In this document: one piece after another, positions 9,102 through 27,223 of the stretch | How the letters are laid out: each line of letters begins with the position of its first letter | Numbering within the stretch: the first letter of the stretch is position 1 | NCBI RefSeq assembly: GCF_000378465.1 | Contig: NZ_KB899929.1 | Location: 1-64,000, forward strand | Direction: 5' to 3' | From: Elioraea tepidiphila DSM 17972 | Lineage (GTDB): Bacteria; Pseudomonadota; Alphaproteobacteria; Acetobacterales; Acetobacteraceae | Length of the DNA stretch: 64,000 nt | Made by a program: the position numbers and the translations under genes | The notes under the pieces: model-generated | What the model was told of the DNA's origin: nothing | Seen by the model: the letters and a program-made list of their open reading frames with translations, nothing else | Database searches by the model: none

Positions 9102-10226
9102 CTATAACTCCAAAGCCTCGATCTGGCGCGCGATCACTTTCGCCTCGTCATAGAGATCGAGCGCCCGCGCCCGCCCGGCCGCCCCCATCCGCGCCCGCAA
9201 GCGCTCATCCGTTACCAGTTGCCCAAGCGCCTCAGCCAAGGCCTCCGGATCGCGCACCGGCACCAGGAACCCGGTCTCGCCGTCCACCACCTGCTCGCGC
9301 GCCCCGCGAATCCGCGTCGCCACCACCGGCAGCCCCGTCATCATCGCCTCGATGATGCTGCGCGGCATGCCCTCGCGATGGCTCGGCAGCACGAACAGAT
9401 CGGCCCCGCGCAGCAGCGCGGCGACATCCGTGCGATAGCCGAGCAGCCTGAGCCGCGCCGCCACGGCCGGATCGCCCTCGGCCCGCGCGAGCGCCCCCGC
9501 GACGTCGCCCTCGTGGTCGCTCTCGAGCCGCGTGCCGACACAGGCGAGCGTCAGTCCTGGCACGCGCGCCAGCGCCTCGAACAGTTCGGGATAGCCCTTC
9601 TCGGCGACCATCCGCCCGATTATCAGCGCGACCGCCGCATCGTCGGGGACGCCCAGCGCGGCCCGTGCGGCCGCGCGCTCCTCCGCGGTGCCCGGACGAA
9701 ACACGTCCGGATCGACCCCGTTGCCGATCGCCAGCACCCGCCCGCCAGGCGCGATCCGCTCCACGATCGCGGTCTCGGCATCCTCGGCGCTCTGGGTGAA
9801 CAGGACGTCCGTGAACCGGCGGCCGAACCGCTCCAGCCCGACATGCAGCCGCCGCTTCGCCGGCGCCATCGCCTCGTGGAAGTAGAACCCGTGCGCCGTG
9901 TAGACGATGCGCGGCACACCGGAGATGCGCCCGGCGACGCGCCCGAGCAGCCCGGCGAGCGGCGTGTGCACGTGCAGGAGATCGAACCGCTCGCGCCGGA
10001 ACAGGCGCAGCAACGCCAGGAACGCGGGCAGGTTCGAGATCGGGTTCAGGCTGCGCGCGAACGGCACGGGCTCGATGCGGAAGCCTTCCGCGCGCGCGGG
10101 CGCGAGCTTCGGCCCGTCGGCGCAGATCCCCACCACCTCGTGGCCGCGGTCGCGTAAGGTCCGCATCAGCGGCAGCAGGAAATGCGTCAGCGAGAAGTCG
10201 ACATTGGTGAGCTGCGCGATCTTCAC
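9102..10226 (-). CDS. Glycosyltransferase family 4 (GT-B)
   Basis: A 374-residue GT-B enzyme of family GT4, transferring a sugar from a nucleotide donor, probably to a lipid-linked or surface glycan in the cytoplasm. Seen are the N-terminal acceptor domain (MKIAQLTNVDFSLTHFLLPLMRTL, YTAHGFYFHE) and the C-terminal donor domain with IGNGVDPDVFRPG, ALIIGRMVAEKGYPELFEA and the E-x7-E motif EGMPRSIIEAM. The start overlaps the asnB stop by 4 bases. The HGFYFHE segment resembles enzymes that add the second sugar in polysaccharide or O-antigen assembly; substrate unknown. Confidence 0.88.
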   Translation of the reverse strand: MKIAQLTNVDFSLTHFLLPLMRTLRDRGHEVVGICADGPKLAPARAEGFRIEPVPFARSLNPISNLPAFLALLRLFRRERFDLLHVHTPLAGLLGRVAGRISGVPRIVYTAHGFYFHEAMAPAKRRLHVGLERFGRRFTDVLFTQSAEDAETAIVERIAPGGRVLAIGNGVDPDVFRPGTAEERAAARAALGVPDDAAVALIIGRMVAEKGYPELFEALARVPGLTLACVGTRLESDHEGDVAGALARAEGDPAVAARLRLLGYRTDVAALLRGADLFVLPSHREGMPRSIIEAMMTGLPVVATRIRGAREQVVDGETGFLVPVRDPEALAEALGQLVTDERLRARMGAAGRARALDLYDEAKVIARQIEALEL

Positions 10227-12097
10227 GCCCGCGCCTCCAGCCAGCCGCCGAGCATCAGCACGGCCCAGAGGGGGGACGCGTGGTCGCGCCGTCCGGCGCG
10301 GTGTTCGGCCCAGAGACGCGACACCCGCTCGCGATCGACCAGCCCCGATTCGCGCAAGCGGTGCGAGGCGAGCCGATCCTCGGCCCAGCCGCGCAACGGT
10401 CCGCGCAGCCAGGCGCCGACCGGGAACGAGAACCCCGTCTTCTCGCGCTCGAACAGGGCGCGCGGCGCGTGGCGCGCCAGCGCATCGCGCAGCACCGCCT
10501 TGCCGCCGTCCGCGCGCACCAGCAGGTCGGGCGGCAGCGAGAACGCGAGGCGCATCATCGCTGGCGACAGCATCGGCACGCGCACCTCCAGTGCGACGCT
10601 CATGGACGCGCGATCGACCTTGGTCAGCACGTCGTCATGCAGGTAGCCGGCGGCGTCGAGGGCGCGGAAGCGCGCCAGCGGCTCCGCGGGCGCGCCGTCA
10701 TGCGCAACCGGCTCGCCGTCGGTTGTCGTCAGCCGCGCGTACACCGCATCGAGATCGCGCGCGGCCAGCACGGCGGCGAGCTTGTGCAGCGTCTCGCCAG
10801 GGCGTCGCGGTGCGCGGGGCAGGGGGCCCAGCGCGGCGTCCCACCAGCCCGGCGGCACGGCGCCGATCGCGTCGGCGAGCGCGCGCCGCAGCGGCCACGG
10901 CACGCGCGCCAGACGCGGCCAGAGACGCGCGGCGAGCACGTGCCGGCGATAGCCGCCGAACAACTCGTCGCCGCCATCCCCCGACAGCGCGACCGTCACA
11001 TGCGCGCGCGTCAGGCGGGACAGGAGCAGCGTCGGCAGTTGCGAGGAGTCCGCGAAGGGCTCGTCGTGGATGCGCGGCAGCTCGTCCACCAGCGCCAGCG
11101 CATCCGCCTCCGTGGCGCGCAGCACCGTGTGGCGCACACCGAGCGCGCTGGCGATGCGTGCCGCGTCGGCGCTCTCGTCATAGGCCGGATCGTCGAAGCC
11201 GATGGTGAAGGCATGCGCGGCTCCGGGTGCGGCACGCGCCATCGCCGCGACCACGGAGGAGGAGTCCACCCCGCCCGAAAGGAACGCGCCCACGGGCACG
11301 TCGGCGACGAGCTGCGCGCGCACGCTCCTGCTCAGCGCCGCATCCACGGCCTCCGCCGCCTCGGCTCTGCTCAACCGTGCCGGCGCGGCCTCGCGCGCGA
11401 GTGCCAGGATGTCGAACCAGCGCCGCTCCTCGGGCGTGCCGTCCATGCCGATCCGCACCAGGCCGCCGGGCGGCAGCTTGCGGACGGCCCGGAACACCGT
11501 GCGCGGCGCGGGGATGCAGCCGAGGCGCAGATACGCGGCCACACTCTCGGGATCGATCTCGGGCGACCAGCCGCCCGCCGCCTCCAGCGCGCGGAGTTCG
11601 CTGCCGAACAGCACCGAACCGTCGGGCAGCATCGTCCAGACCAGCGGCTTGATGCCGGCATGGTCGCGCGCGAGCCAGAGCACGCGCTCGGCCCGGTCCC
11701 AGAGCGCGAAGGCGAACATGGCATCCAGCCGCGCCAGCGCCTCGGCGATACCCCACTGCGCGCAGGCCTCCAGCAGCACTGCGGTGTCGCTCTCGCCCTG
11801 CACGGGCCGACCGCATGCGGCGAGCGCGTCGCGCAGCGCACGGTAGTTGTAGAGCTCGCCGTTATACGTGACGACGTAACGACCGCAGGACGAGGCCATC
11901 GGCTGGGCGCCGCCCGGCGAGAGATCGATGATCGCCAGCCGGCGGTGCGCCAGCGCGACACCGCACGCGGCATCGGCCCAGACGCCCGCGCCATCCGGCC
12001 CGCGATGCGCAACTGCTTGCCCCATCGCCGCCGCGCGCGCGCGCAGCGGCGCCTCGGCCTCGGGCCGGCGCAGGAACACCCCCGCGATGCCGCACAT
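10223..12097 (-). CDS. Asparagine synthase (glutamine-hydrolysing) family amidotransferase
   Basis: A 624-residue class II glutamine amidotransferase of the AsnB family. Cys2 of MCGIAGVF is the N-terminal nucleophile, RRLAIIDLSPGGAQPM and YNGELYNYRALRDAL define the glutaminase domain, and FLSGGVDSSSVVAAM is the ATP-pyrophosphatase loop of the synthetase domain. It lies between a heparinase II/III-like gene (9 bases upstream) and a GT4 gene (4-base overlap). In such glycan clusters AsnB-like enzymes often amidate sugar acids rather than aspartate, so classical asparagine synthesis is possible but not proven. Confidence 0.88.
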   Translation of the reverse strand: MCGIAGVFLRRPEAEAPLRARAAAMGQAVAHRGPDGAGVWADAACGVALAHRRLAIIDLSPGGAQPMASSCGRYVVTYNGELYNYRALRDALAACGRPVQGESDTAVLLEACAQWGIAEALARLDAMFAFALWDRAERVLWLARDHAGIKPLVWTMLPDGSVLFGSELRALEAAGGWSPEIDPESVAAYLRLGCIPAPRTVFRAVRKLPPGGLVRIGMDGTPEERRWFDILALAREAAPARLSRAEAAEAVDAALSRSVRAQLVADVPVGAFLSGGVDSSSVVAAMARAAPGAAHAFTIGFDDPAYDESADAARIASALGVRHTVLRATEADALALVDELPRIHDEPFADSSQLPTLLLSRLTRAHVTVALSGDGGDELFGGYRRHVLAARLWPRLARVPWPLRRALADAIGAVPPGWWDAALGPLPRAPRRPGETLHKLAAVLAARDLDAVYARLTTTDGEPVAHDGAPAEPLARFRALDAAGYLHDDVLTKVDRASMSVALEVRVPMLSPAMMRLAFSLPPDLLVRADGGKAVLRDALARHAPRALFEREKTGFSFPVGAWLRGPLRGWAEDRLASHRLRESGLVDRERVSRLWAEHRAGRRDHASPLWAVLMLGGWLEARA

Positions 12098-15722: not shown

Positions 15723-17528
<1,806 letters not shown>

Positions 17529-17617
17529 CGAGGACGGTGCGCGGCGCTCCGTAACCGCTCCGCATCAACGCCGTCCGCTGCCTTGACGTCGCGCTCGCCT
17601 GTGCGAGCCTCGCGCGC

Positions 17618-18610
17618 ATGCGCATCCACATCCAGAACCCGGCCGACGACGCGGACTTCGCCTTCACGCCCGTGCAATGGGCGGCGGCCGTATCGCGCGC
17701 CGCGGACCCGGGACATCTCGACGTCTCCTTCGCCTCGGACGAAGCCGGCTTCGCGGCCGCCATGCGCGAGGCGGAGGTGCTGCTGACCTGGACCAGGATC
17801 GTGAAGGAGCGTTTCCCGGTCGGGGCGCTGCCGGCACGCGCGCCGCGTCTCAAGGTGATCGCCTGCAATTCGGCCGGGCTGGATCGGCTTGCTCCGTTCG
17901 ACTGGCTGCCGCCGGAGGTCACGCTGCTGAACAACCGCGGCACGCATGCGCGCAAGGCCGGCGAGTTCGCGCTGATGGCGCTGCTGATGCTGGCGAGCCA
18001 CATCCCGCATTTCGCGACTGCCCAGCGCGCGGAGACGTGGGAGCCGCGTTTCGGCTCGGTGCTCGCCGGCCGGACGGTCTGCATCGTCGGGCTGGGCACG
18101 CTGGGCGGCGCGGCGGCCGAGCAGGCGCGCGCCTTCGGGATGCGCGTGCTCGGCGTGCGCACCACCCCCGCGCCGCACCCGGCCTGCGACGAGGTCCATG
18201 CGACCGCGTCGCTGGATGCGGTGCTGCCGCGGGCCGAGTTCCTGCTGCTCGCCTGCCCGCTCACCCCGGCCACGCGCGGCCTGATCGACCGCCGCCGCCT
18301 CGGCCTGCTGCCCCGCGGTGCGAAGGTGGTGAACATGGCGCGCGGCGCGGTGTGGGACCAGGACGCCGTCTGCGACGCGCTGGAGGCCGGCCATCTCGCC
18401 GGCGGCGTCACCGATGTCGCCGTGCCCGAGCCCCTGCCGCCCGGGCATCGGCTCTGGCGCACGCCCGGACTGATCGTGGTGCCGCACGTGTCGTCGGACG
18501 ATCCCGCGACCTACAACGACCGCACGCTCGACATCCTGCTCGCGAATCTCGCGGCGATCCGGGATGGCCGGCCGGCGCCGAACCGCGTCGATCCCGCCCG
18601 CGGCTACTGA
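17618..18610 (+). CDS. D-2-hydroxyacid dehydrogenase family protein
   Basis: A 330-residue NAD(P)-dependent D-isomer-specific 2-hydroxyacid dehydrogenase. The Rossmann loop is CIVGLGTLGGAAAEQARAFGM; the catalytic Arg is in VNMARGAVWDQD, the Glu in DVAVPEPLP and the His in VVPHVSSDDP. It would reduce a small 2-oxoacid such as glyoxylate or hydroxypyruvate, or oxidise the reverse; the substrate cannot be read from sequence. It lies 89 bases after lepA and converges on the PASTA gene with a 17-base gap. Unrelated to lepA in function as far as can be seen. Confidence 0.88.
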   Translation: MRIHIQNPADDADFAFTPVQWAAAVSRAADPGHLDVSFASDEAGFAAAMREAEVLLTWTRIVKERFPVGALPARAPRLKVIACNSAGLDRLAPFDWLPPEVTLLNNRGTHARKAGEFALMALLMLASHIPHFATAQRAETWEPRFGSVLAGRTVCIVGLGTLGGAAAEQARAFGMRVLGVRTTPAPHPACDEVHATASLDAVLPRAEFLLLACPLTPATRGLIDRRRLGLLPRGAKVVNMARGAVWDQDAVCDALEAGHLAGGVTDVAVPEPLPPGHRLWRTPGLIVVPHVSSDDPATYNDRTLDILLANLAAIRDGRPAPNRVDPARGY

Positions 18611-18627
18611 CGGGCGCGGCAGCGGGG

Positions 18628-19965
18628 CTATCCGACCTCGCCCTTGAGCGCCTTGCGCAGCGCCATCTGAGCGTCCTGCAGGCCGCGCGGCGTCGGTGCG
18701 CCGATCGCCTTCTGCAGTTCCTCCAGCGAGGCCGAGGCGAGCGTCTCGAAGGCCGCGTAATCCTTCAGCTCCAGGGCGCGCAGACGGTCGCCGAGCAGCT
18801 TGCCGCTGATGCCGGCCCGTGTGCCCGCCGCGGCCTTCACCGCGCGGTCGATCAGGATGTCCACGGCGATGTCGGCGGCCACGATCAGCGACACCGGCGC
18901 GCCGGGCGGCACCTCGGTGCCGGCTTTCGGCGCCTGCGCCAGCACGAGCCCCGGCTTGCCGCCCTCCTTCTCGGCCACCTCGCCGAGCGCGAGCCCGGCC
19001 GCCTTGAGCAGCCGCTCGGCCTCGGCGCGCGACCGTCCGGCAAGGTCCGGTACGGCGACGGTAGGCGGCGGCGCGACCGCGGCCACCAGCGCCACCGCCG
19101 AGCCGGGCTCGACCCGCATGCCCGCGAGCGGCTCCTGCGCCAGCACCGTCCCTTCCGCGACGTCCTTGGACTCGCGCTGCGCGACCCTGCCGCGCACGAG
19201 ACCGAGCGCCTCGATCCGCCCGGTCGCCTCCTCGAGCGGCAGGCCGCGCAGATCGGGCACGGTCGGCTTGATCGCCACCGCGACCACGATGTCGACGGGC
19301 ACCTCCGGCGCGATCTCGTCGGCCGGATCGGGCGTCTGGCCGATCACCGTGCCGGGCGCGTAGCGGCTCTCCTGCTCCGCAACCTTGCCGAGCTTGAGCC
19401 CGGCCCGCGCGAGCGCCGTCTCGGCCGCCGCGCGCGGCAGGCCGAGCAGGTTCGGCACGGGGATGAGTCCCGGCGCGGCGGCCGCCGCCTCGCTCGCCGC
19501 GCGTAGCGTGAACTTCACCTCCGTCAGCTGCGCCGGGTCGAACCGCTCATCCGGCGCGGGCAGCACGAAGCGCAGCCCACCCGACTCGTCGAGGGCCACC
19601 AGCGACTTCAGCCCGACCTGCATCTCGCTGACGGTGTAGGCCGTGCGGTCGCCCGGCCGCGGCTCCAGCCCGCCCTGGAACGCCTCGATCGCCTTGCGGA
19701 ACCCGACCGTGACCTGCTCCGGGCTCGCCTGCAAACGCCCTGCGGCGAGTGTCTTCACCCGGTCGCTGAGCGCGACCTTCTCGGCCTCCAGTTCGGCGAC
19801 GCGCGCTTTCAGCAGCGTCTCCTCGCGCGTCGGCTCCGCCGCGGTCATGCGGGGTGTGACGCCGCTGCGCACGGCCTCCTCCAGCGCGGAGAGCCGCATC
19901 TGAAACGCATCCAGCGTCTTCTCGATCCGCGCCAGACGCTCGGCGATCGCGTCATTCTCCGGCAT
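18628..19965 (-). CDS. PASTA-repeat protein without kinase domain, unknown function
   Basis: A 445-residue protein with an unusual layout. Residues 5-75 form a predicted coiled coil. Residues about 84-156 are a mixed domain (VTVGFRKAIEAFQGGL, then AYTVSEMQVGLKSLVALDE). Three PASTA repeats follow at about 168-230, 234-297 and 302-363, each with a P-DL-G-x-x-x-x-A opening and a P-x-A-G-x-x-V-x-P-G-x-x-V close. A helical C-terminal domain (about 366-445) ends ELQKAIGAPTPRGLQDAQMA. No signal peptide or membrane helix, so it is probably cytoplasmic, unlike peptidoglycan-sensing PASTA kinases. Last gene of the four-gene operon beginning at 21326. Confidence 0.8.
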   Translation of the reverse strand: MPENDAIAERLARIEKTLDAFQMRLSALEEAVRSGVTPRMTAAEPTREETLLKARVAELEAEKVALSDRVKTLAAGRLQASPEQVTVGFRKAIEAFQGGLEPRPGDRTAYTVSEMQVGLKSLVALDESGGLRFVLPAPDERFDPAQLTEVKFTLRAASEAAAAAPGLIPVPNLLGLPRAAAETALARAGLKLGKVAEQESRYAPGTVIGQTPDPADEIAPEVPVDIVVAVAIKPTVPDLRGLPLEEATGRIEALGLVRGRVAQRESKDVAEGTVLAQEPLAGMRVEPGSAVALVAAVAPPPTVAVPDLAGRSRAEAERLLKAAGLALGEVAEKEGGKPGLVLAQAPKAGTEVPPGAPVSLIVAADIAVDILIDRAVKAAAGTRAGISGKLLGDRLRALELKDYAAFETLASASLEELQKAIGAPTPRGLQDAQMALRKALKGEVG

Positions 19966-19998
19966 GCGCCGGGACCCTCCACCGCATTCGGCCGGCGC

Positions 19999-20391
19999 TC
20001 AGCCCCCGGCGCGCGGCGGCGGCGGGATCGACACGATCCGCGCCTTCACCACGCTGGTGCCCTGGACGTCGAGGCCGAGCGTGTTCTGCACCTTCGCGTT
20101 GTGCGGGGCGGCCAGCAGGCTGAGCCTGCTGACCAGCACCCGCCCCGACGTGTCGGTCCTGGTCTCGCGCTTCAACGCCAGCGACATCTTCAGCTCGAGC
20201 GTCACCTCGGGCATGTGATACCACGTCGCCTGCAGGCCGTACTCGCTCAGCACCGGATCGTTGTCGATCAGCGTCTGGGTGGCGATGCTGTTCAGGTCCA
20301 TCGCCCGCTGCGCCTGCGCCACCCCTTCGCCGACCCGCGCGAGCACCTCGCCGAGCGGGCGGACCAGCACCTCCTCGATCTCGTCGGCCAT
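19999..20391 (-). CDS. Conserved hypothetical, paralogue of the next gene upstream (DUF2589-like)
   Basis: A 130-residue protein with no named function. Three blocks match the adjacent 210-residue protein: an N-terminal helix (17-38, sharing the pattern G-x3-A-x-A-Q-x-A-x-DLNSI), a central amphipathic beta hairpin (52-73, GLQATWYHMPEVTLELKM) and a C-terminal strand ending in a proline run (104-127, VQGTSVVKARIVSIPPPPR). The block order recalls DUF2589-type proteins, but that is my inference. It lies 20 bases downstream of the 210-residue gene and 33 bases upstream of the PASTA gene. No signal peptide. Confidence 0.75.
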   Translation of the reverse strand: MADEIEEVLVRPLGEVLARVGEGVAQAQRAMDLNSIATQTLIDNDPVLSEYGLQATWYHMPEVTLELKMSLALKRETRTDTSGRVLVSRLSLLAAPHNAKVQNTLGLDVQGTSVVKARIVSIPPPPRAGG

Positions 20392-20411
20392 CGCGCGCGC
20401 TCAGGCCGCGA

Positions 20412-21044
20412 TCACGGACCGGGCGGCGCCGCCGGCTGCTGGACCGTGATCTTCGGGATCACGCGGCTCGGCGGCGGCACCGGCGTCAGCGTCGTGCGCA
20501 GCAGGCTCGACCCTTCCACCTTGAAGTTGAACTTCGAGGTGTAGGTCGCGTTCATCGTCGAGGTCCGCGCGACGGTGGTGGTGTTCTCCACGCTCGCCTT
20601 GCCTGAGCCGGCGAGCAGCCCGAGCAGACCGCCGGTCTTGTAGCTCGCCTGGAACTTGGTCTTGTTCTCGAACTTCGTGGTCGTGCCGAAGCTGACGCTG
20701 CGCGCGATCTCCAGCGACATGGTGATCGCCATCTTCACTTCGATGATGGTCTCGCTGAAGGCGTAGAAGGTCGGGTTGATGCCGTAGACCAGCAGCGGCA
20801 TCTCCCTGTCGTTGTAGAGCACCTCGGTGTTGGTGACGTTGCCGTCCGCGTCCACCGTCTCCTTGATCGCGACCACCACCGTGCCTTCGGGCAGCATGGT
20901 GTTGGCGAGCGCCTGCGCGGTCTGGATGCTGTTCAGGTCGAGGGCGAGCTGCGCCTCGGCGATCGCGAGGCCCATCTTCTCGACCATCTCGGGGAAGGGA
21001 ACGTCCAGCAGGGCCTGCCCGACGCCACGCGCGAGATTTGTCAT
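20412..21044 (-). CDS. Conserved hypothetical beta-rich protein (DUF2589-like)
   Basis: A 210-residue protein of unknown function. N-terminal helix 20-42 (VEKMGLAIAEAQLALDLNSI), central strands 82-112 (MPLLVYGINPTFYAFSETI, IEVKMAITMSLEI), a Thr/Lys/Phe-rich polar beta region 115-170 and a C-terminal strand 172-193 (FKVEGSSLLRTTLTPVPPPSR). The MPLL...VKM block resembles the VPLL...VDITF core of DUF2589 proteins. The polar Thr/Ser-rich stretch is lower in GC than neighbouring genes. Paralogous to the downstream 130-residue protein. No export signal. Follows the 84-residue gene by 27 bases. Confidence 0.75.
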   Translation of the reverse strand: MTNLARGVGQALLDVPFPEMVEKMGLAIAEAQLALDLNSIQTAQALANTMLPEGTVVVAIKETVDADGNVTNTEVLYNDREMPLLVYGINPTFYAFSETIIEVKMAITMSLEIARSVSFGTTTKFENKTKFQASYKTGGLLGLLAGSGKASVENTTTVARTSTMNATYTSKFNFKVEGSSLLRTTLTPVPPPSRVIPKITVQQPAAPPGP

Positions 21045-21071
21045 AACCCGAACCCTCCGTTCGTCCGCGGC

Positions 21072-21326
21072 CTAGCCGCCGATCCTGTTGCCCGCCTCGT
21101 TCACCCTGATGCGGCGGATGGGTCGTGGGGCGATGTCCACGCCGCCGCAATGACGCACGTCATGTCGTGCCGTGATCGCCTCCTTGGCCGCGTCGGCCAT
21201 CCGCGCCACCAGCGCCCCGGACGATGCCGTCAGGATCACGAAACCGCCGGCCTCCATCACCGCGGCACGCACGCGCTTCTGCGCGGTCGGGCTGGTCGGC
21301 ACAATCAGGTAATGGCGCTCTGTCAC
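21072..21326 (-). CDS. Small protein, possible I9-propeptide-like fold
   Basis: An 84-residue protein starting with GTG, first gene of the operon. The pattern HYLIVPTSPTAQKRVRAAV, then GGFVILTASSGALVARM, then VDIAPRPIRRIRV looks like a beta-alpha-beta-beta-alpha-beta ferredoxin-like unit such as the subtilisin propeptide/inhibitor I9 domain; this is a fold guess, not a family hit. No Cys pair, signal peptide or membrane segment. A 22-base copy of its start region lies 61 bases upstream (21372-21393) in a different frame. A weak GAGG lies about 10 bases before the GTG. Confidence 0.6.
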   Translation of the reverse strand: MTERHYLIVPTSPTAQKRVRAAVMEAGGFVILTASSGALVARMADAAKEAITARHDVRHCGGVDIAPRPIRRIRVNEAGNRIGG

Positions 21327-21393
21327 GCGGGGAAATACCTCGATATCCGGGTTGTCCGCGCCGTGCTCCGAAATGGCGCTCTGTCACGCGGGG
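21311..21393. repeat. 22-base direct repeat spanning a start codon
   Basis: Two exact 22-base copies at 21311-21332 and 21372-21393, 61 bases apart. The first carries the GTG start and the next codons of the 84-residue gene on the minus strand (core GTGACAGAGCGCCAT) plus six bases upstream. The second copy sits in the leader and puts an identical start sequence in another frame, which would read out of frame with the real gene. It may be a short local duplication or a repeated binding site for a regulator of the operon. Confidence 0.7.
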
Positions 21394-21507
21394 GAAACAC
21401 TCATGACACCACTCGCGCAACGGTACGTCTGGGCATCATCGGCTGTCAATCTTTGCGTGCGACGTCCCTGTGGCTGCGCGCGCGGCGATCGGGTCGCCAC
21501 GATCCGA

Positions 21508-22341
21508 TCACTTCCGGTCGAACAGGTGTTTCGGGCTGAACCCGCCCTTACGGCTGTACTCCATGGTGCAGAACGGTCCGCCCTGGTAGCGCTCCTCCAC
21601 CGGATCGCCGCTGACCTTGCCGGCGAGCTGCCCGGCGAAGGTGTCCGCGCTGTCCTGCGGCGCCCAGCCGATCAGGTCGCGCGCGTCCTTGCGCCAGAAG
21701 CTCCGGGCGTTGTTGGACGCCCCCCAGATCACCGCGCAGCCGACGCGCTCGGCGAGCACGCAGCGCTCCACAAGGCGACACAGATCGGGATAGGATAGCC
21801 AGGTGGAGAGCATGCGGTTGTTCACCGGCTCCGGAAGGCACGAGCCGATGCGCAGGAACACGCTTTCGACTCCGTGCTTGTCCCAGTAGAGCCGTCCCAT
21901 CAGTTCGCCATACGCCTTGGCGAGGCCGTAATAGCCGTCGGGGCGCATGTCGCAGTCGTGGTCGAGCGTCTCGCTGCGCTCGTGGAAGCCGATCGTGTGG
22001 TTGGAGGAGGCGAACACCACGCGGGCCTCCTCGCGTCGTGCCGCCTCGTAGATGTGGTAGAGGCCGCGAATGTTCGGCCCCAGCACCTCCTCGAAGGGGC
22101 GCTCGACCGAGACGCCGCCGAAATGGAGGATCGCCCCGCAGCCTTCGGCGAGGCGCAGGATGGCGACCCCGTCGTTCAGGTCGGCGGCGACGAAGCGCGC
22201 GCCCTTCGGCAGCGGGTCCGGGAACGGCGCGATATCGGTCAGGCGCAGCGTCCAGCCGGCCTGCGCGAGATGGCGGGTCAGTTGCCGCCCGAGCGCGCCG
22301 GACGCGCCGGTGAGCAGCACGGGCTTGGCGGGTACGGACAT
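21508..22341 (-). CDS. udh: Uronate dehydrogenase (NAD-dependent)
   Basis: A 277-residue short-chain dehydrogenase/epimerase-type enzyme closely patterned on Agrobacterium uronate dehydrogenase: LLTGASGALGRQL, HFGGVSVERPFEEVLGPNI, VFASSNHTIGFHERSE, the YGLAK catalytic Tyr/Lys, LRIGSCLPEPVNNRMLSTWLS and VIWGASNNA. It oxidises D-glucuronate or D-galacturonate to the aldarolactone. AGGAGG lies six bases before the ATG at 22341; the longer open frame to 23178 is an artefact. Last gene of the leftward uronate operon, 14 bases after the lactonase gene. Confidence 0.93.
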   Translation of the reverse strand: MSVPAKPVLLTGASGALGRQLTRHLAQAGWTLRLTDIAPFPDPLPKGARFVAADLNDGVAILRLAEGCGAILHFGGVSVERPFEEVLGPNIRGLYHIYEAARREEARVVFASSNHTIGFHERSETLDHDCDMRPDGYYGLAKAYGELMGRLYWDKHGVESVFLRIGSCLPEPVNNRMLSTWLSYPDLCRLVERCVLAERVGCAVIWGASNNARSFWRKDARDLIGWAPQDSADTFAGQLAGKVSGDPVEERYQGGPFCTMEYSRKGGFSPKHLFDRK

Positions 22342-22355
22342 CGGAGCCTCCTCGG

Positions 22356-23237
22356 TCAATCGGCGAACATCGGCACGGGCACGCCCGGCTCGTCGGACGG
22401 CATGATGAACAGCGCGCCCGAGAGCGGGCTCGCGCCGACGCCCTCGGCGCCCAGCAGCGTGCGCAGCGACGTCCAGACGATCGTGCGCAGATCCGGCCCG
22501 CAGAAGCAGGGCATGGTGACGCCGAGCGCGGGGAAGGGCAGGCTGTCGATCAGCGTGCCGTCGGTGCGGAAGCGGTTGATCCGCCCCTTGCGCACGCCCG
22601 CCGACCAGTATCGGCCCGCCATGTCGAAGGCCGCGCCGTCGGGCCGGCCGATCGCCTCGGTGTCCGGGGTGACGATGCGGCGGCGGTTCGATGCCGTGCC
22701 GGTCTCGGGGTCGAAGTCCCAGGCATCGATCCAGGGCGCGCCGCTGTCGCTGTGCACCATCGTCCGCCCGTCGCCGGTCCACGCCATGCCGTTGGCGGTG
22801 TAGAGCCCGTCCGTGATCTCGCGCCAGGAGCCGTCGGGCGCGACGCGGAACAGCCGGCCCAGCGGCTCGCGCTGCACCCGCTCGTCCATCGATCCGACCC
22901 AGAACGCGCCGTCCGGGCCGATCTTGCCGTCGTTCAGCCGCCCATGGGGCGGGATCGGTCCCGGCGTGCAGAACGGCTCGATCCGGCGCGCGCGCCAGTC
23001 GTAGCGCACCACCTCGTGGCGCAGCGCGACGATCCAGCGCCCCGAGCGGCAGAGGCCGAAGGATCCGACCTCGGACGGAAAGTGCCAGGTATTGAGCACC
23101 GTGCCGTCCAGGCTGACGGCGGTGATCGAACAGCCGAGGATGTCGGCGACCAGCACCCGGTTGTGCGCCGCGTCCCACACCGGGCCCTCGCCCAGCGCGA
23201 AACGCAGATCGGGGTTCAGCACGCGGATGTCGCTCAT
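22356..23237 (-). CDS. SMP-30/gluconolactonase family lactonase
   Basis: A 293-residue six-bladed beta-propeller of the SMP-30/gluconolaconase/LRE type. Metal-binding motifs are recognisable: GEGPVWD (Glu), RLNDGKIGPDGAFWVGSMD (Asn/Asp), YTANGMAWTGDGRTMVHSDS and PDGAAFDMAGRYW. In this operon it most likely opens the aldarolactone made by uronate dehydrogenase. Its start shares one base with the upstream gene's stop (TGATG), so it is translationally coupled to the enolase-superfamily enzyme. Confidence 0.9.
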   Translation of the reverse strand: MSDIRVLNPDLRFALGEGPVWDAAHNRVLVADILGCSITAVSLDGTVLNTWHFPSEVGSFGLCRSGRWIVALRHEVVRYDWRARRIEPFCTPGPIPPHGRLNDGKIGPDGAFWVGSMDERVQREPLGRLFRVAPDGSWREITDGLYTANGMAWTGDGRTMVHSDSGAPWIDAWDFDPETGTASNRRRIVTPDTEAIGRPDGAAFDMAGRYWSAGVRKGRINRFRTDGTLIDSLPFPALGVTMPCFCGPDLRTIVWTSLRTLLGAEGVGASPLSGALFIMPSDEPGVPVPMFAD

Positions 23238-24430
23238 CAGGTCCTTCCCGTGGTTCGTCGGATCGCCGCTCCGGCCAGCGCCGCCGGCGTGAGCGCGAGG
23301 CCGAGGCCCGGCCCGCGTGTCGGCGCGATCATGCCGTCTGCGACTATCGGCAGCGCCGTGACCAGGTCGCGGTACCAGCCCGACCAGTAGGCGCGCACGC
23401 TCTCCATGAACACCGCGTTCGGCAGCGCGCAGGCGAGATGCGTGGAGGCCGCGAACACCACCGGGCCGGTGCAGTCATGCGGCGCCACCGGGCGCTGATG
23501 CGCCTCGGCGAGTGCGGCGATCCTGCGCGCCTGCGTCAGCCCGCCGCACCAGCCGATATCGAGCATCACGTAGTCCACCGCCTCGGCCCGCAGCAGGTCG
23601 AGGAACTGTGCGGCGGTCGCGAGCGTCTCGGAGGCGCAGACCGGCAGGCCGGAGCGGCGGCGGTAATCCGCGAGCGCGAGCGGATCGAGGTTGCGCAGCG
23701 GGTCCTCCATCCAGAACGGACGGAAGGGTGCTGCCGCACGCGCGATCGCCAGCGCCGCCGGCAAATCCCAGAGCGCGTGCAGCTCGATCATCACCTCCAT
23801 CGCATCGCCGACCGCATCGCGGATGCGCCGCAGCGGCTCGAGCGCGCGGTCGATCTCGGCAGCGGTGATCAGCTGCCCGGAGGTCGCGCCGGCGAAAGGA
23901 TCGAAGGGCCAGATCTTCATCGCGCCGATGCCCATCGCGAGCAGGCTCCGCGCCAGCGCGCCGGCATCGCGCTCCGCGGCGATCTGATCGTCATACGGCC
24001 CCTGCGGCGCGTCCTCGGCGGCGATGGCGCGCCGCCCGCCGGAGCGGTTGTAGGCGTAGCCGGCGCAGGTGTTGTAGGTCCGGATCGAGGTCCGCGTCAG
24101 CCCGCCGAGCAGGTCATGCAGCGGCCGTCCGCCGGCCTGGCCGGCGAGGTCCCAGAGCGCGATGTCGATCGCCGAGGCGGCGCGCAGCTCCGCGCCCGAG
24201 GAGCGGTAGCCGACATAGGGCCGCGTCAGCTCGGCGTTGAGCGCCTCGATCCGCGACGGATCGGTGCCGAGCAGGCGCGGGGCGATCTCGGCATGGATCT
24301 GCGCCTCGACCGCGGCGGCACCGCGGAAGGTCTCGCCGAGCCCGACCAGGCCCTCGTCCGTTTCAACCCGGACCCAGAGGATGTTGGCATAGTCGGGTGG
24401 GCGGATCGTCTCGATCGCGGTGACGATCAT
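23237..24430 (-). CDS. Mandelate racemase/muconate lactonising family enzyme
   Basis: An enolase-superfamily enzyme of 397 residues. N-terminal capping domain (1-120), then a TIM barrel with a base lysine in GAMKIWPFDP, metal ligands in VMIELHALWD, FWMEDPLRNLD and VCASETLATA, and the late His in PVAPHDCTGPVV. The WPFDPFAG insert and HALWD sequence fit the acid-sugar dehydratase/galactarolactone cycloisomerase group. With Udh and the lactonase it should convert an aldarate or aldarolactone to a keto-deoxy product. Overlaps the DctM stop by 4 bases. Exact reaction is inferred from context. Confidence 0.88.
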   Translation of the reverse strand: MIVTAIETIRPPDYANILWVRVETDEGLVGLGETFRGAAAVEAQIHAEIAPRLLGTDPSRIEALNAELTRPYVGYRSSGAELRAASAIDIALWDLAGQAGGRPLHDLLGGLTRTSIRTYNTCAGYAYNRSGGRRAIAAEDAPQGPYDDQIAAERDAGALARSLLAMGIGAMKIWPFDPFAGATSGQLITAAEIDRALEPLRRIRDAVGDAMEVMIELHALWDLPAALAIARAAAPFRPFWMEDPLRNLDPLALADYRRRSGLPVCASETLATAAQFLDLLRAEAVDYVMLDIGWCGGLTQARRIAALAEAHQRPVAPHDCTGPVVFAASTHLACALPNAVFMESVRAYWSGWYRDLVTALPIVADGMIAPTRGPGLGLALTPAALAGAAIRRTTGRT

Positions 24431-25719
24431 GTCCCGTAGCCGAGCGTCAGGCGGGGCAGCGTCAGCGACAGCGGTGACCAGTAGGTGGTCAGCGCGAGGG
24501 CCACCAGGATGGCGCCGTAGAACGGCCAGATCGTGCGCATCACGGATTCGATCTTCACCCGCGCGATCGCGCAGCCGACGAACAGCACCGCGCCCACGGG
24601 CGGGGTGGTGAGCCCGAGGCCCAGGTTCATCATCACGACCATGCCGAACTGCACCGGATCGACACCGATCTGGGTCGCGACCGGCAGGAAGATCGGCGTG
24701 CAGATCAGGATCAGCGCGGCCATGTCCATGATGCAGCCGAGCACCAGCAGCGCGAGGTTGATCAGCAGCAGCAGCACGATCGGGTTGTCGGAGATCGCCA
24801 GCATGGCGGTCGCGAGCTCCTCCGGAACGCGATGCAGCGCGAGCAGATAGGCGAAGCCCGAGGCGGTGCCGACCAGCAGGAGCACCACGGAGGTGGTGCG
24901 CACGGACTGCGCGACCGCGGTGACGAAGCCTTCCCACGTCAGTTCGCGATAGATCAGCGCGGTACAGAGCACGGCCCAGCCGGCCCCCATCGCCGCGCTC
25001 TCGGTGACGGTGAAGATGCCGCCGAGGACGCCGCCCAGGATGATGATGGCGGTGAACAGTCCCGGGAATGCGACAGCCGCGGCGCGGGCGAGCGCGCGGA
25101 AGCCCGGGAACGGGTCGCCGCGATAGCCGCGCTTGGCGCCGATCAGGTAGGCGGCGACCGCGAGGCAGACGCACATCATCACGCCCGGCGCCACGCCCGC
25201 CATGAACAGCGCCGAGACCGACACGCCGCCGCCGGCCGCGAGCGAATAGAGGATCATGTTGTGCGAGGGCGGGATCATGATCCCCGCGATCGACGACGTG
25301 ACCGTGACGTTCACCGCGTAGTCGGTGTCGTAGCCCTTCTGCCGCATCGCCGGGATCAGGATCGAGCCCAGCGCCGAGGTGTCCGCCACCGCCGAGCCGG
25401 AGATGCCGCCGAACAGCATGGAGGCGAACACGTTGACGATGCCGAGCCCGCCCTTCACGCCACCGACCGCGGAGGAAGCAAGCGTGATCAGCCGGGAGGC
25501 GATACCGCCGTGCAGCATGATCTCGCCGGCGAAGATGAAGAACGGGATCGCGAGCAGCGAGAACACGTTCATGCCGGAGGTCATCTGCATGAACGCAACC
25601 GCGAGCGGCAGGCCCTCCCACCAGAACCCGGCCACCGCGGCAAGCCCGAGCGCGAACGAGACCGGCACGCCCGCCGCGAGGGCAAGCGCGAACACGCCGA
25701 ACAGGATGGCAAGGCCCAT
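24427..25719 (-). CDS. dctM: TRAP transporter large permease (DctM type)
   Basis: A 430-residue inner-membrane protein with about 12 hydrophobic segments, the ion-coupled channel of a TRAP transporter. Diagnostic parts are FIFAGEIMLHGGIASRLI, GGISGSAVADTSALGSILIPAM, MIPPSHNMILYS, ILICTPIFLPVATQIGVDP and GLTTPPVGAVLFVGCAI. It overlaps the enolase-superfamily gene by 4 bases and follows dctQ by 6 bases. Likely moves uronates or aldarates captured by the neighbouring binding protein. Confidence 0.94.
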   Translation of the reverse strand: MGLAILFGVFALALAAGVPVSFALGLAAVAGFWWEGLPLAVAFMQMTSGMNVFSLLAIPFFIFAGEIMLHGGIASRLITLASSAVGGVKGGLGIVNVFASMLFGGISGSAVADTSALGSILIPAMRQKGYDTDYAVNVTVTSSIAGIMIPPSHNMILYSLAAGGGVSVSALFMAGVAPGVMMCVCLAVAAYLIGAKRGYRGDPFPGFRALARAAAVAFPGLFTAIIILGGVLGGIFTVTESAAMGAGWAVLCTALIYRELTWEGFVTAVAQSVRTTSVVLLLVGTASGFAYLLALHRVPEELATAMLAISDNPIVLLLLINLALLVLGCIMDMAALILICTPIFLPVATQIGVDPVQFGMVVMMNLGLGLTTPPVGAVLFVGCAIARVKIESVMRTIWPFYGAILVALALTTYWSPLSLTLPRLTLGYGT

Positions 25720-25725
25720 GCGGGT

Positions 25726-26238
25726 TCAGTCCGAAGCGGGGCGGCCGAGCGGCGGCAGGCCGGCAAGGCGGCGCAGCAGGTGTTCGGCGACGAACAGCAT
25801 GGTGAGCGCGCCGCAGATCACCATCGGCACGAACTGCCAGCCCTGGCTGATGCCGAGCAGAGGGATGCGGAAATTCCAGTAGTTGCCCACCAGCACCCAG
25901 GCCCATTCGACCATGATCCAGCCCAGCGCGAACAGCGCGAGATCGGCCGCGACCGCAACGACGGGCCGTGCCGCCGGCGGCAGGGCGGCGACGACCAGCT
26001 CGACCGCCATGTGGAACCGCTCGCGCACGCCGACACCCGCGACCGGCAGGGCGACGAACAGGATCGCCAGCAGGGCGCCGCGCTCGACCCAGGTGGGGGT
26101 GTCGTTCAGCACGTAGCGGCCGAACACCATCCAGATCAGGCTGACGACGAGGGCGACCAGCGCCGCCCCCGCCAGCAGGATCACGCCGCGCGCGACGAGG
26201 TCTAGGATCGCCGAGAGGGCGGCGACGGCCGCCCTCAC
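25726..26238 (-). CDS. dctQ: TRAP transporter small permease (DctQ type)
   Basis: A 170-residue membrane protein with four transmembrane helices, the small partner of DctM. Typical features: VVSLIWMVFGRYVLNDTPTWVERGALLAILFVALPVAG, then VRERFHMAVELV and a last helix FVPMVICGALTMLFVAEHLL. The GTG at 26238 is chosen because it starts immediately before the first helix and leaves a 13-base gap after dctP; an in-frame extension to 26307 would run into the dctP gene and is Arg/Ser-rich filler. Confidence 0.88.
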   Translation of the reverse strand: MRAAVAALSAILDLVARGVILLAGAALVALVVSLIWMVFGRYVLNDTPTWVERGALLAILFVALPVAGVGVRERFHMAVELVVAALPPAARPVVAVAADLALFALGWIMVEWAWVLVGNYWNFRIPLLGISQGWQFVPMVICGALTMLFVAEHLLRRLAGLPPLGRPASD

Positions 26239-26251
26239 GCGCGTGCTCCGC

Positions 26252-27223
26252 TCACTGCGTCGCCCGGATCTGCTCGACCAGCGCCTTGAGGTTCGGCGTG
26301 CCGGCATACTTCGCGTAGATCGGTTCCATCAGCCGTGCGAAGGGCGTACGGTCCTGGATGTCGGTCACGGTCACGCCGGCGGCGATCACGCGCTCGCGCG
26401 ACTGCTTCTCGCGCTCGGCCCAGAGTCGGCGCTGCAACGCGGATGCCTCGCGCGCGGCCGTGCGCACGATCTCCTTGTCGGCCGCCGAAAGGCGGTCCCA
26501 GCGCTGCTTGTTCACCACCACGATCTCCGGGACGTTGGAGTGCTCGGTGGTGGAATAGAAGCGGGCGTGCTCGTAATGCCGCTGGCTCTCGAAGGAGGGC
26601 CAGTTGTTCTCGGCGCCATCGACCACGCCGGTCTGGAGAGCGGTGTAGAGCTCGCCGAAGGGCAGCGGCACCGGATTGGCACCGAGGGCGCGCATCAGGT
26701 CGATGAACAGGTCGGAGGTCTGCACGCGGATCTTCAGGCCGCGCATGTCCTCGGGCGTGCGGATCGCGCGGTTGCGCGTGTAGACCGAGCGCGCGCCGGC
26801 ATCGAACCAGCTCACGACCACCATGTTGAGCTTGGCCTCGATCTCGCGCGCGATCGCGTCACCCACCGCGCCATCGACCACGCGGTGGCTGTGCGGCACA
26901 TCGCGGAAGATGAAGGGCAGGGTCAGCACCTGGGTCTCGGGCACCAGGTTGTTGAGCGGCGTGATGTTGAAGTTCGCCACGTCGATCGCGCCCAGGCGAA
27001 GCTGCTGGATCGCCTCGTCCTGCTGGCCGAGCTGCGCCGAGTGGAACATGCGCATGCGGATGCGGTTGTTGGTCCGCTGCCCGACCAGCTCGGCCCATTT
27101 CTCGAGCCCCTGGCTGTTCGGATAGTCCGGCACATGGATGTTCCAGCCACGCCATTCCTGCGCGGCGGCGGGCGAGGCGGCGATGGCGATGGCGGCGGCG
27201 GCCGCGAGCAGACGTCTGGACAT
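26252..27223 (-). CDS. dctP: TRAP transporter substrate-binding protein (DctP type)
   Basis: A 323-residue periplasmic binding protein with a Sec signal peptide (MSRRLLAAAAAIAIAASPAAAQ, cleavage after AAA). The family hallmark RGLKIRVQTSDLFIDLMRALG carries the Arg that pairs with the substrate carboxylate, followed by PVPLPFGELYTALQTGVVDGAENN. GGAGGATCC lies just before the ATG. First gene of the leftward uronate operon, divergent from the GntR regulator. By family precedent and context the ligand is probably a hexuronate or aldarate. Confidence 0.92.
   Translation of the reverse strand: MSRRLLAAAAAIAIAASPAAAQEWRGWNIHVPDYPNSQGLEKWAELVGQRTNNRIRMRMFHSAQLGQQDEAIQQLRLGAIDVANFNITPLNNLVPETQVLTLPFIFRDVPHSHRVVDGAVGDAIAREIEAKLNMVVVSWFDAGARSVYTRNRAIRTPEDMRGLKIRVQTSDLFIDLMRALGANPVPLPFGELYTALQTGVVDGAENNWPSFESQRHYEHARFYSTTEHSNVPEIVVVNKQRWDRLSAADKEIVRTAAREASALQRRLWAEREKQSRERVIAAGVTVTDIQDRTPFARLMEPIYAKYAGTPNLKALVEQIRATQ

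Follow-up and report, generated by a model that had tools for sequence, protein, structure and literature searches.

The DNA analyzed here is a 64-kb window, meaning the whole stretch examined, of contig NZ_KB899929.1 from Elioraea tepidiphila DSM 17972, and all positions given for this genome refer to that window. Between positions 18628 and 21326, the minus strand carries four tandem open reading frames (ORFs), called genes A, B, C, and D in this study and collectively the cassette (Table 1). The intergenic gaps measure 27 base pairs (bp) between A and B, 20 bp between B and C, and 33 bp between C and D, which confirms the row of four leftward genes with gaps of 20 to 33 bases described in an initial annotation of this DNA. 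Compared with the copy in Elioraea thermophila (locus L013), the ratios of nonsynonymous to synonymous substitution (dN/dS, simple counting method) are 0.36 for A, 0.32 for B, 0.35 for C, and 0.37 for D, and therefore all four genes evolve as proteins. A promoter and terminator scan found nothing. A 25-bp direct repeat with 96% identity is present at positions 21311-21335 and 21372-21396, 61 bp apart, and the GTG start of gene A falls within one of the copies.

Table 1. Features of the four-gene cassette and its surroundings in the E. tepidiphila window (aa, amino acids; HhH, helix-hairpin-helix; pLDDT, predicted local distance difference test)
Feature	Positions	Strand	Description
Gene A	21072-21326	-	84 aa, GTG start; same family as the A proteins of other cassettes
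Gene B	20412-21044	-	210 aa; subunit with predicted helix and beta-hairpin, remotely related to DUF2589 by profile comparison
Gene C	19999-20391	-	130 aa; paralogue of B, shorter
Gene D	18628-19965	-	445 aa; by eye, an initial coiled coil and an HhH-like C-terminal stretch, with a middle domain and three PASTA repeats between them
B residues 17-48	20901-20996	-	Long helix with A-x-x-Q-x-x-L-D signature; AlphaFold2 pLDDT block means 77 to 96
B residues 93-189	20478-20768	-	Hairpin region: strand 93-110 (PTFY.F.E..IEV), 111-172, strand 173-189 before PVPPP
D middle domain, residues 74-165	19471-19746	-	Common to D proteins of other layouts (profile comparison)
Three PASTA repeats of D	18877-19461	-	Pfam E = 2.7e-39
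D C-terminal stretch, residues 382-440	18646-18822	-	HhH-like by eye; 68% identical in L014
Segment absent from same-genus genome G006 (L135)	17525-21517		Hydroxyacid dehydrogenase-type gene plus cassette; G006 flanks lie 209 bp apart

Searches of Pfam, NCBIfam, PHROG, and PADLOC gave no family at E ≤ 0.01 for protein A, B, or C. The family matches of D consist of PASTA, others that lie over the PASTA part, and PHROG 9146 (function unknown, E = 2e-4), which covers the coiled-coil part. No signal peptide was seen at any of the four N termini when these were inspected by eye rather than with SignalP. The highest hydropathy over 19 residues is 1.56 in A, 1.02 in B, 0.84 in C, and 1.79 in D, where the customary threshold for a membrane segment is 1.6. 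The peak in D begins at residue 354 and is not taken as a membrane segment because it is located where the third PASTA repeat ends. These observations agree with the absence of export signals claimed previously.

We scanned one genome per species using six aligned B proteins, which yielded 152 stretches and 139 relatives; 80 were retained, in 78 loci. Together with loci L012 to L017, this gave 84 loci, from which 13 near-duplicates (by judgment) and two broken loci (L014 and L015) were dropped, leaving 69. These loci were found mainly through B, whose presence therefore cannot count toward co-conservation, and some close relatives remain among them (e.g., six Halorubrum). At least two B/C genes are present in 66 of the 69 loci, and 59 carry at least two B/C genes plus D. 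Gene A is found in 51, and the full set of A, B/C, and D is found in 44. Core cassette genes share one strand at all 69 loci. Several incomplete loci reach a contig end (e.g., L016, L038, L042, L054, and L076), and the A-like frame that is visible by eye in L065 was excluded from the count for A.

The cassette hosts include bacteria of many phyla and haloarchaea, and the commonest gene order, seen at most loci, is A-B1-B2-C-D (hereafter the common layout). The order A-B-C-D with PASTA repeats occurs in the window and at L013, L073, and L065 (A by eye), and L069 begins inside B. Comamonadaceae-type and Plastoroseomonas loci have the order A-B-x-B-C-D, and most haloarchaea have B1-B2-C-D-A. Loci with no recognized A gene, which mainly read C-D-B-B or carry more B genes, belong to Bacteroidota, Clostridia, Fibrobacter, and some others. 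Outside the cassette, no protein cluster occurs at more than seven of the loci compared, and the nearest neighbors are diverse by eye. Thus, the genome-neighborhood check, which had been set beforehand as the refuting test for the initial annotation, found the genes kept together elsewhere, with the full set present in both bacteria and haloarchaea. The four gene families are a co-inherited unit in a few fixed layouts, and their shared inheritance is well supported. The notion that these genes are chance neighbors without a common function was rejected, as the same families stand together in bacteria and haloarchaea; we found no point in its favor and consider its probability negligible.

In a tree of 41 B1 proteins from 13 phylum-level groups, Pseudomonadota need five changes, at least three of which are forced by supported branches. 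Speaking against free transfer, the tree requires 16 label changes (minimum 12, shuffled mean 26.4), and eight of nine archaeal rows fall on one branch. Horizontal transfer of the cassette is suggested by these branching patterns, with the caveat that metagenome bins may be contaminated.

The distribution among close relatives is patchy, with B present in 5 of 60 genomes (own genome included). In E. thermophila (G001, NZ_QMDI01000002.1), the four genes keep the order A-B-C-D and have sucCD-type genes on one side and lepA on the other (by eye). At the same place, a second genome (G005) has an A-like frame plus B, C, and D in pieces. A third genome (G003) yielded only fragments of B. Both are draft assemblies in which assembly error is possible. 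Another genome of the genus (G006) lacks the entire segment that includes the cassette (Table 1), and in the 9 kb around this site no match to A through D was better than E = 0.27. G006 therefore represents the empty site. Given the variable outer neighbors and this empty site, we conclude that the four genes are a portable accessory cassette. Elsewhere, the cassette family occurs in 1 of 72,556 plasmid records, and in a sample of 296 genomes from the class to which L065 belongs, the B family occurs in one, namely L065's own genome.

Both the window (21508-26307) and L012 on a Sphaerotilus plasmid (6761-11453) have genes of the sugar-acid catabolism type close to the cassette, including a TRAP transporter, an NAD-dependent dehydrogenase, SMP-30, and an IlvD-type dehydratase (those of the window by eye). 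One IlvD-type cluster spans five loci, which could be a coincidence or a shared insertion habit. A link between the cassette and sugar-acid catabolism was considered for these two loci and set aside, as the E. thermophila cassette instead has the neighbors named above. G006 likewise lacks positions 23249-24433, which lie between the SMP-30 and TRAP genes and hold what by eye is an enolase-superfamily-type gene. At L015, a LepA-type frame (9663-11687) has an apparently mosaic N-terminal part, perhaps due to an assembly error.

Proteins B and C share 25% identity over 179 aa (BLASTP, E = 7e-11). We also compared profiles with hhalign (score P) using disjoint sequence sets, with reversed sequences as controls. 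C reaches P 99.8 against B family profiles (reversed 9.7), and C of the common layout reaches P 96.4 against C (reversed 0.2) and P 40.5 against B (reversed 0.1). In combination with the strands present in AlphaFold2 models, these values bear out the earlier proposal that B and C are paralogous beta-containing proteins. Furthermore, the B profile aligns end to end with DUF2589 (PF11655) over 155 columns (P 95.2, E = 2.8e-8; reversed P 1.3, 15 shuffles at most 0.3). A direct PF11655 match was obtained for 1 of 86 B-type members (E = 2.1e-4), and window B and C give no match to this Pfam model up to E = 1. On the basis of this whole-domain profile homology, the B family is a remote relative of DUF2589.

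The B-type subunit is predicted to be a long helix plus a beta-hairpin whose base is confident and whose tip is not. In a 92-row alignment, residues A29 and Q32 of the helix signature are invariant, and L35 and D36 are nearly invariant. Residues 111-172 are rich in Ser and Thr, are structurally unresolved in the model, and contain GGLLGLLAG; Ser/Thr content is 32% in window B residues 110-172 versus 13% elsewhere. The AlphaFold2 model of window B has a mean pLDDT of 71.5 and a predicted template modeling score (pTM) of 0.51, with the helix and the strands up to about residue 100 being confident and the end strand being partly so (block means 61 and 88). Likewise, the model of B1 from L024 (mean pLDDT 72.9, pTM 0.50) has a helix at residues 13-44 and DSSP strands at 84-110 and 127-152, with pLDDT values of 36-53 in blocks 101-140. 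The strands are amphipathic, with hydrophobic and polar residues that alternate beyond shuffles (z values of 27 and 14, inflated by the relatedness of the rows). This alternation does not demonstrate a pore, as a two-faced soluble sheet would alternate too.

The three PASTA matches of D are the only ones at E ≤ 0.001 in the genome (4.3 Mb, 56 contigs), and the absence of a kinase domain from D upholds its description as a kinase-less PASTA protein. D resembles PASTA kinases and penicillin-binding proteins in having these repeats, but it has neither a kinase nor a transpeptidase domain and no convincing membrane segment, and identity with a PASTA Ser/Thr kinase or penicillin-binding protein was therefore rejected. 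A match of D to the PD-T4-6 defense system in PADLOC was also rejected because it covers residues 233-365, which is the PASTA part. PASTA repeats recur on D or C at L053, L061, L065, L067, L069, L073, L078, and L091, together with HhH or DUF4332, and this recurrence strengthens the proposal that they serve as a binding arm. HHH_5 is present at the C terminus of D in L061, L053, and L069, and the corresponding stretch of window D has no Pfam match.

The middle domain of D, represented by window-like and haloarchaeal sets, reaches P 97.0 against D of the common layout (reversed 0.3) and P 98.6 against D of the large layout (reversed 0.2). The same domain reaches P 96.0 against C of the common layout (reversed 0.3) and P 36.3 against C (reversed 0.2). 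Protein A of the window matches the A proteins of L013, L014, and L016 (phmmer); A of window-like sets reaches P 96.6 against A of the common layout (reversed 1.2), and haloarchaeal A reaches P 99.0 against it (reversed 1.1). When A was compared with PDB up to E = 10, 9 of 13 rows were the Tk-subtilisin propeptide, at E values (0.11-0.36) that are not significant. None of 38 A members matched the I9 inhibitor up to E = 1, and none of 40 relatives carries PF05922.

These domain relationships bear on one account of the cassette, in which it encodes an intracellular conflict adaptor or scaffold. B, C, and the D middle domain would be Trypco2-like, A would be a propeptide-like regulator, the PASTA and HhH modules would bind cytoplasmic ligands, and the effectors would be encoded elsewhere. 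The Trypco2 (PF19631) profile reaches P 85.5 against the D middle domain (reversed 0.9), P 71.2 against C (reversed 0.2), and P 40.3 against C of the common layout (reversed 1.1), and direct Trypco2 matches were found for 4 of 86 B-type members (best E = 0.003). The lack of visible signal peptides in A through D also fits an intracellular role. However, Trypco2 reaches only P 8.5 against D of the large layout (reversed 0.1), P 3.4 against D of the common layout (reversed 4.1), P 26 against B1, and P 2 against DUF2589, and the comparison involves about 80 residues and a profile of seven similar rows. The kinship of Trypco2 with the D middle domain and C is thus suggestive only. In the literature, Trypco1 and Trypco2 are described as partners or adaptors in trypsin-type conflict systems (PMC7159879, PMC10907252), the neighbors of Trypco2 are trypsin-type genes (PMC7159879), and PASTA and OmpA are listed among envelope-linked conflict components (PMC7159879). 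No trypsin, caspase, MoxR, or TIR genes were recognized among the nearest neighbors of the cassette, which were viewed by eye without library annotation. We consider the adaptor account to be somewhat unlikely.

Larger relatives of the cassette carry features that point to the cell envelope. At L067, L070, L086, and L088, an OmpA domain is present in a long insert within a B-like protein, at about model positions 96-156 in the hairpin region (the L088 domain scores below the Pfam cutoff). The usual ligand of OmpA-like domains is peptidoglycan. Because the insert is located in the hairpin region, the hairpin end probably faces the cell wall; the insert also favors a stalk form for these subunits. 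The four OmpA-B fusion loci also share a family of about 350-400 aa, whose L067 member has no Pfam match, and a TPR-type family. Beside a cyanobacterial cassette, a gene at L027 (4943-7126) encodes a C-terminal OmpA domain with a start that is vWA-like by eye (no Pfam vWA); two genes there look vWA-like by eye, and the only Pfam match between them is the OmpA domain of one.

Wall- and glycan-degrading enzymes with no obvious leader (by eye) occur in some gene rows, namely Amidase_2 at L067, L078, and L091 and GH5 at L066. DUF2589 genes are likewise followed by GH19 genes at L112 (4642-5274) and L114 (7914-8471) and by an Amidase_3 gene at L113 (7576-8238), again with no obvious leader by eye. 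Such enzymes are present at three of seven DUF2589 loci (L116 spans only 3.3 kb, and L111 is partly masked), and DUF2589 may belong to a lysis module. The OmpA domains and the wall hydrolases, which larger relatives contain or have next to them, thus point to the cell envelope more than to a purely intracellular scaffold of the kind proposed in the initial annotation.

We tentatively favor a reading in which this self-contained, patchy cassette encodes an envelope-directed lysis or conflict device, and we regard it as possible at low confidence. Its products would be parts of a hetero-oligomer made in the cytoplasm, which we infer from co-inheritance and paralogy. The paralogous B/C subunits would pack side by side through their helices, and their hairpins would form a beta stalk or barrel. 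D would clamp the subunits and present its PASTA arms, and A, perhaps propeptide-like, would chaperone or restrain the assembly. After activation or lysis, the hairpin end would engage the cell envelope of the host itself or of a foreign cell, a step proposed because of the OmpA insert in four large relatives and the leaderless wall hydrolases beside some. A membrane pore and a wall-anchored stalk are two candidate forms of this model. We prefer lysis or conflict to housekeeping in view of the patchy distribution of the cassette, its absence or fragmentation in sister genomes, and the wall enzymes that sometimes accompany it. The conflict component is likewise inferred from patchiness, presence and absence within the genus, and the weak Trypco2 link.

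The same modules would also suit a structural or stress assembly that serves its own cell without conflict, such as a wall-linked, cytoskeletal, or storage-like scaffold. PASTA, OmpA, and HhH are binding modules, the minimal set is free of enzymes, and the dN/dS values indicate purifying selection. However, a patchy spread, an empty site, and copies in pieces within one genus speak against such a role, and we hold this explanation to be somewhat unlikely.

A further alternative is a domesticated phage-tail-like particle released by lysis, with B/C serving as its tube or spike. In an Acidimicrobiaceae bin, a T4 gp19-type tail tube gene (L065, 510-941) lies directly upstream of an A-B-C-D-like row, and wall hydrolases beside some relatives would suit such a particle. 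In addition, a Foldseek search of a viral library with window B gave one row below E = 0.001, the predicted viral protein A0A516MP19 (E = 7.5e-4, template modeling scores 0.43/0.50). However, the tail gene is known from one locus on a metagenome-assembled contig, no tail family recurs among the neighbors (most of which are unannotated), and a class-wide search around L065 (the 296 genomes mentioned above) revealed no more tail-tube-linked copies. Neither window B nor haloarchaeal B has a match in 50,697 phage records (tblastn), and peptide-pattern scans, which see only close patterns, found none in viral contigs. The B family matches four PHROG families through one or two members each (E = 0.004-0.009). 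We therefore judge a phage-tail origin to be improbable.

Several observations weigh against the envelope-directed device that we favor. No export route is known for the cassette proteins, and the searches of phage records and viral contigs revealed no sequence relative. The B family has no PADLOC system match, with five families giving one weak match each among 86 B-type members. The DUF2589 link runs through B, because C sets alone give P 23.9 (pure C set) and P 2.3 (C of the common layout) against DUF2589. Wall hydrolases are found beside a minority of loci, as judged from chosen annotated neighbors with no control loci, and minimal cassettes, including that of the window, carry no enzyme. 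Haloarchaea, which are not known to have peptidoglycan, retain PASTA in their sets. A hairpin that carries a folded OmpA domain is less likely to insert into a membrane. Moreover, window B has low to very low pLDDT at about residues 101-180 (below 50 at 111-138 and 148-172), and in both models the hairpin past its base mostly has pLDDT below 55, with pTM values near 0.5. Foldseek searches of PDB with both models gave nothing significant (best E = 0.78 and 0.43), and the low-confidence tips weaken these searches.

The insignificant PDB rows include aerolysin-type proteins, tail tubes, and secretins. Cassette B resembles aerolysin-type beta-pore formers in having amphipathic strands around a Ser/Thr-rich part with a hydrophobic stretch, but it has no visible signal peptide and no significant structural match, some hairpins contain OmpA, and the length of the hairpin is uncertain. 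DUF2589 offers a parallel in one respect, as two nearby copies are present in six of eight genomes with matches, similar to the adjacent B/C paralogues of the cassette. However, seven DUF2589 loci include no A, C, or D family member (hmmsearch, E = 0.1), PF11655 itself gives no match with the window proteins, and DUF2589, like the cassette, has no assigned function. Our searches of Pfam, NCBIfam, PHROG, PADLOC, and the open-licence PubMed Central literature found no description of the cassette. As a gene set it therefore appears to be new, and the expectation of an undescribed system was borne out within the libraries and papers searched.

In its boldest form, the proposal is that the cassette represents a new class of multi-subunit beta-barrel machine from a DUF2589-like superfamily, made in the cytoplasm and shared by bacteria and haloarchaea, that would puncture or clamp envelopes and whose larger versions would work together with wall hydrolases. 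This would be a holin-endolysin-like or gasdermin-like principle outside phages, an idea that we regard as speculative and quite unlikely. Regardless, a composition that is kept across many phyla and haloarchaea with no annotated match in the libraries searched shows that the inventory of portable microbial machines is incomplete. The cassette also offers a common frame for DUF2589, and perhaps for Trypco2, that combines a helix and hairpin, close paralogues, and wall-binding or wall-cutting partners. Its small size and self-contained nature make the function of the cassette directly testable.

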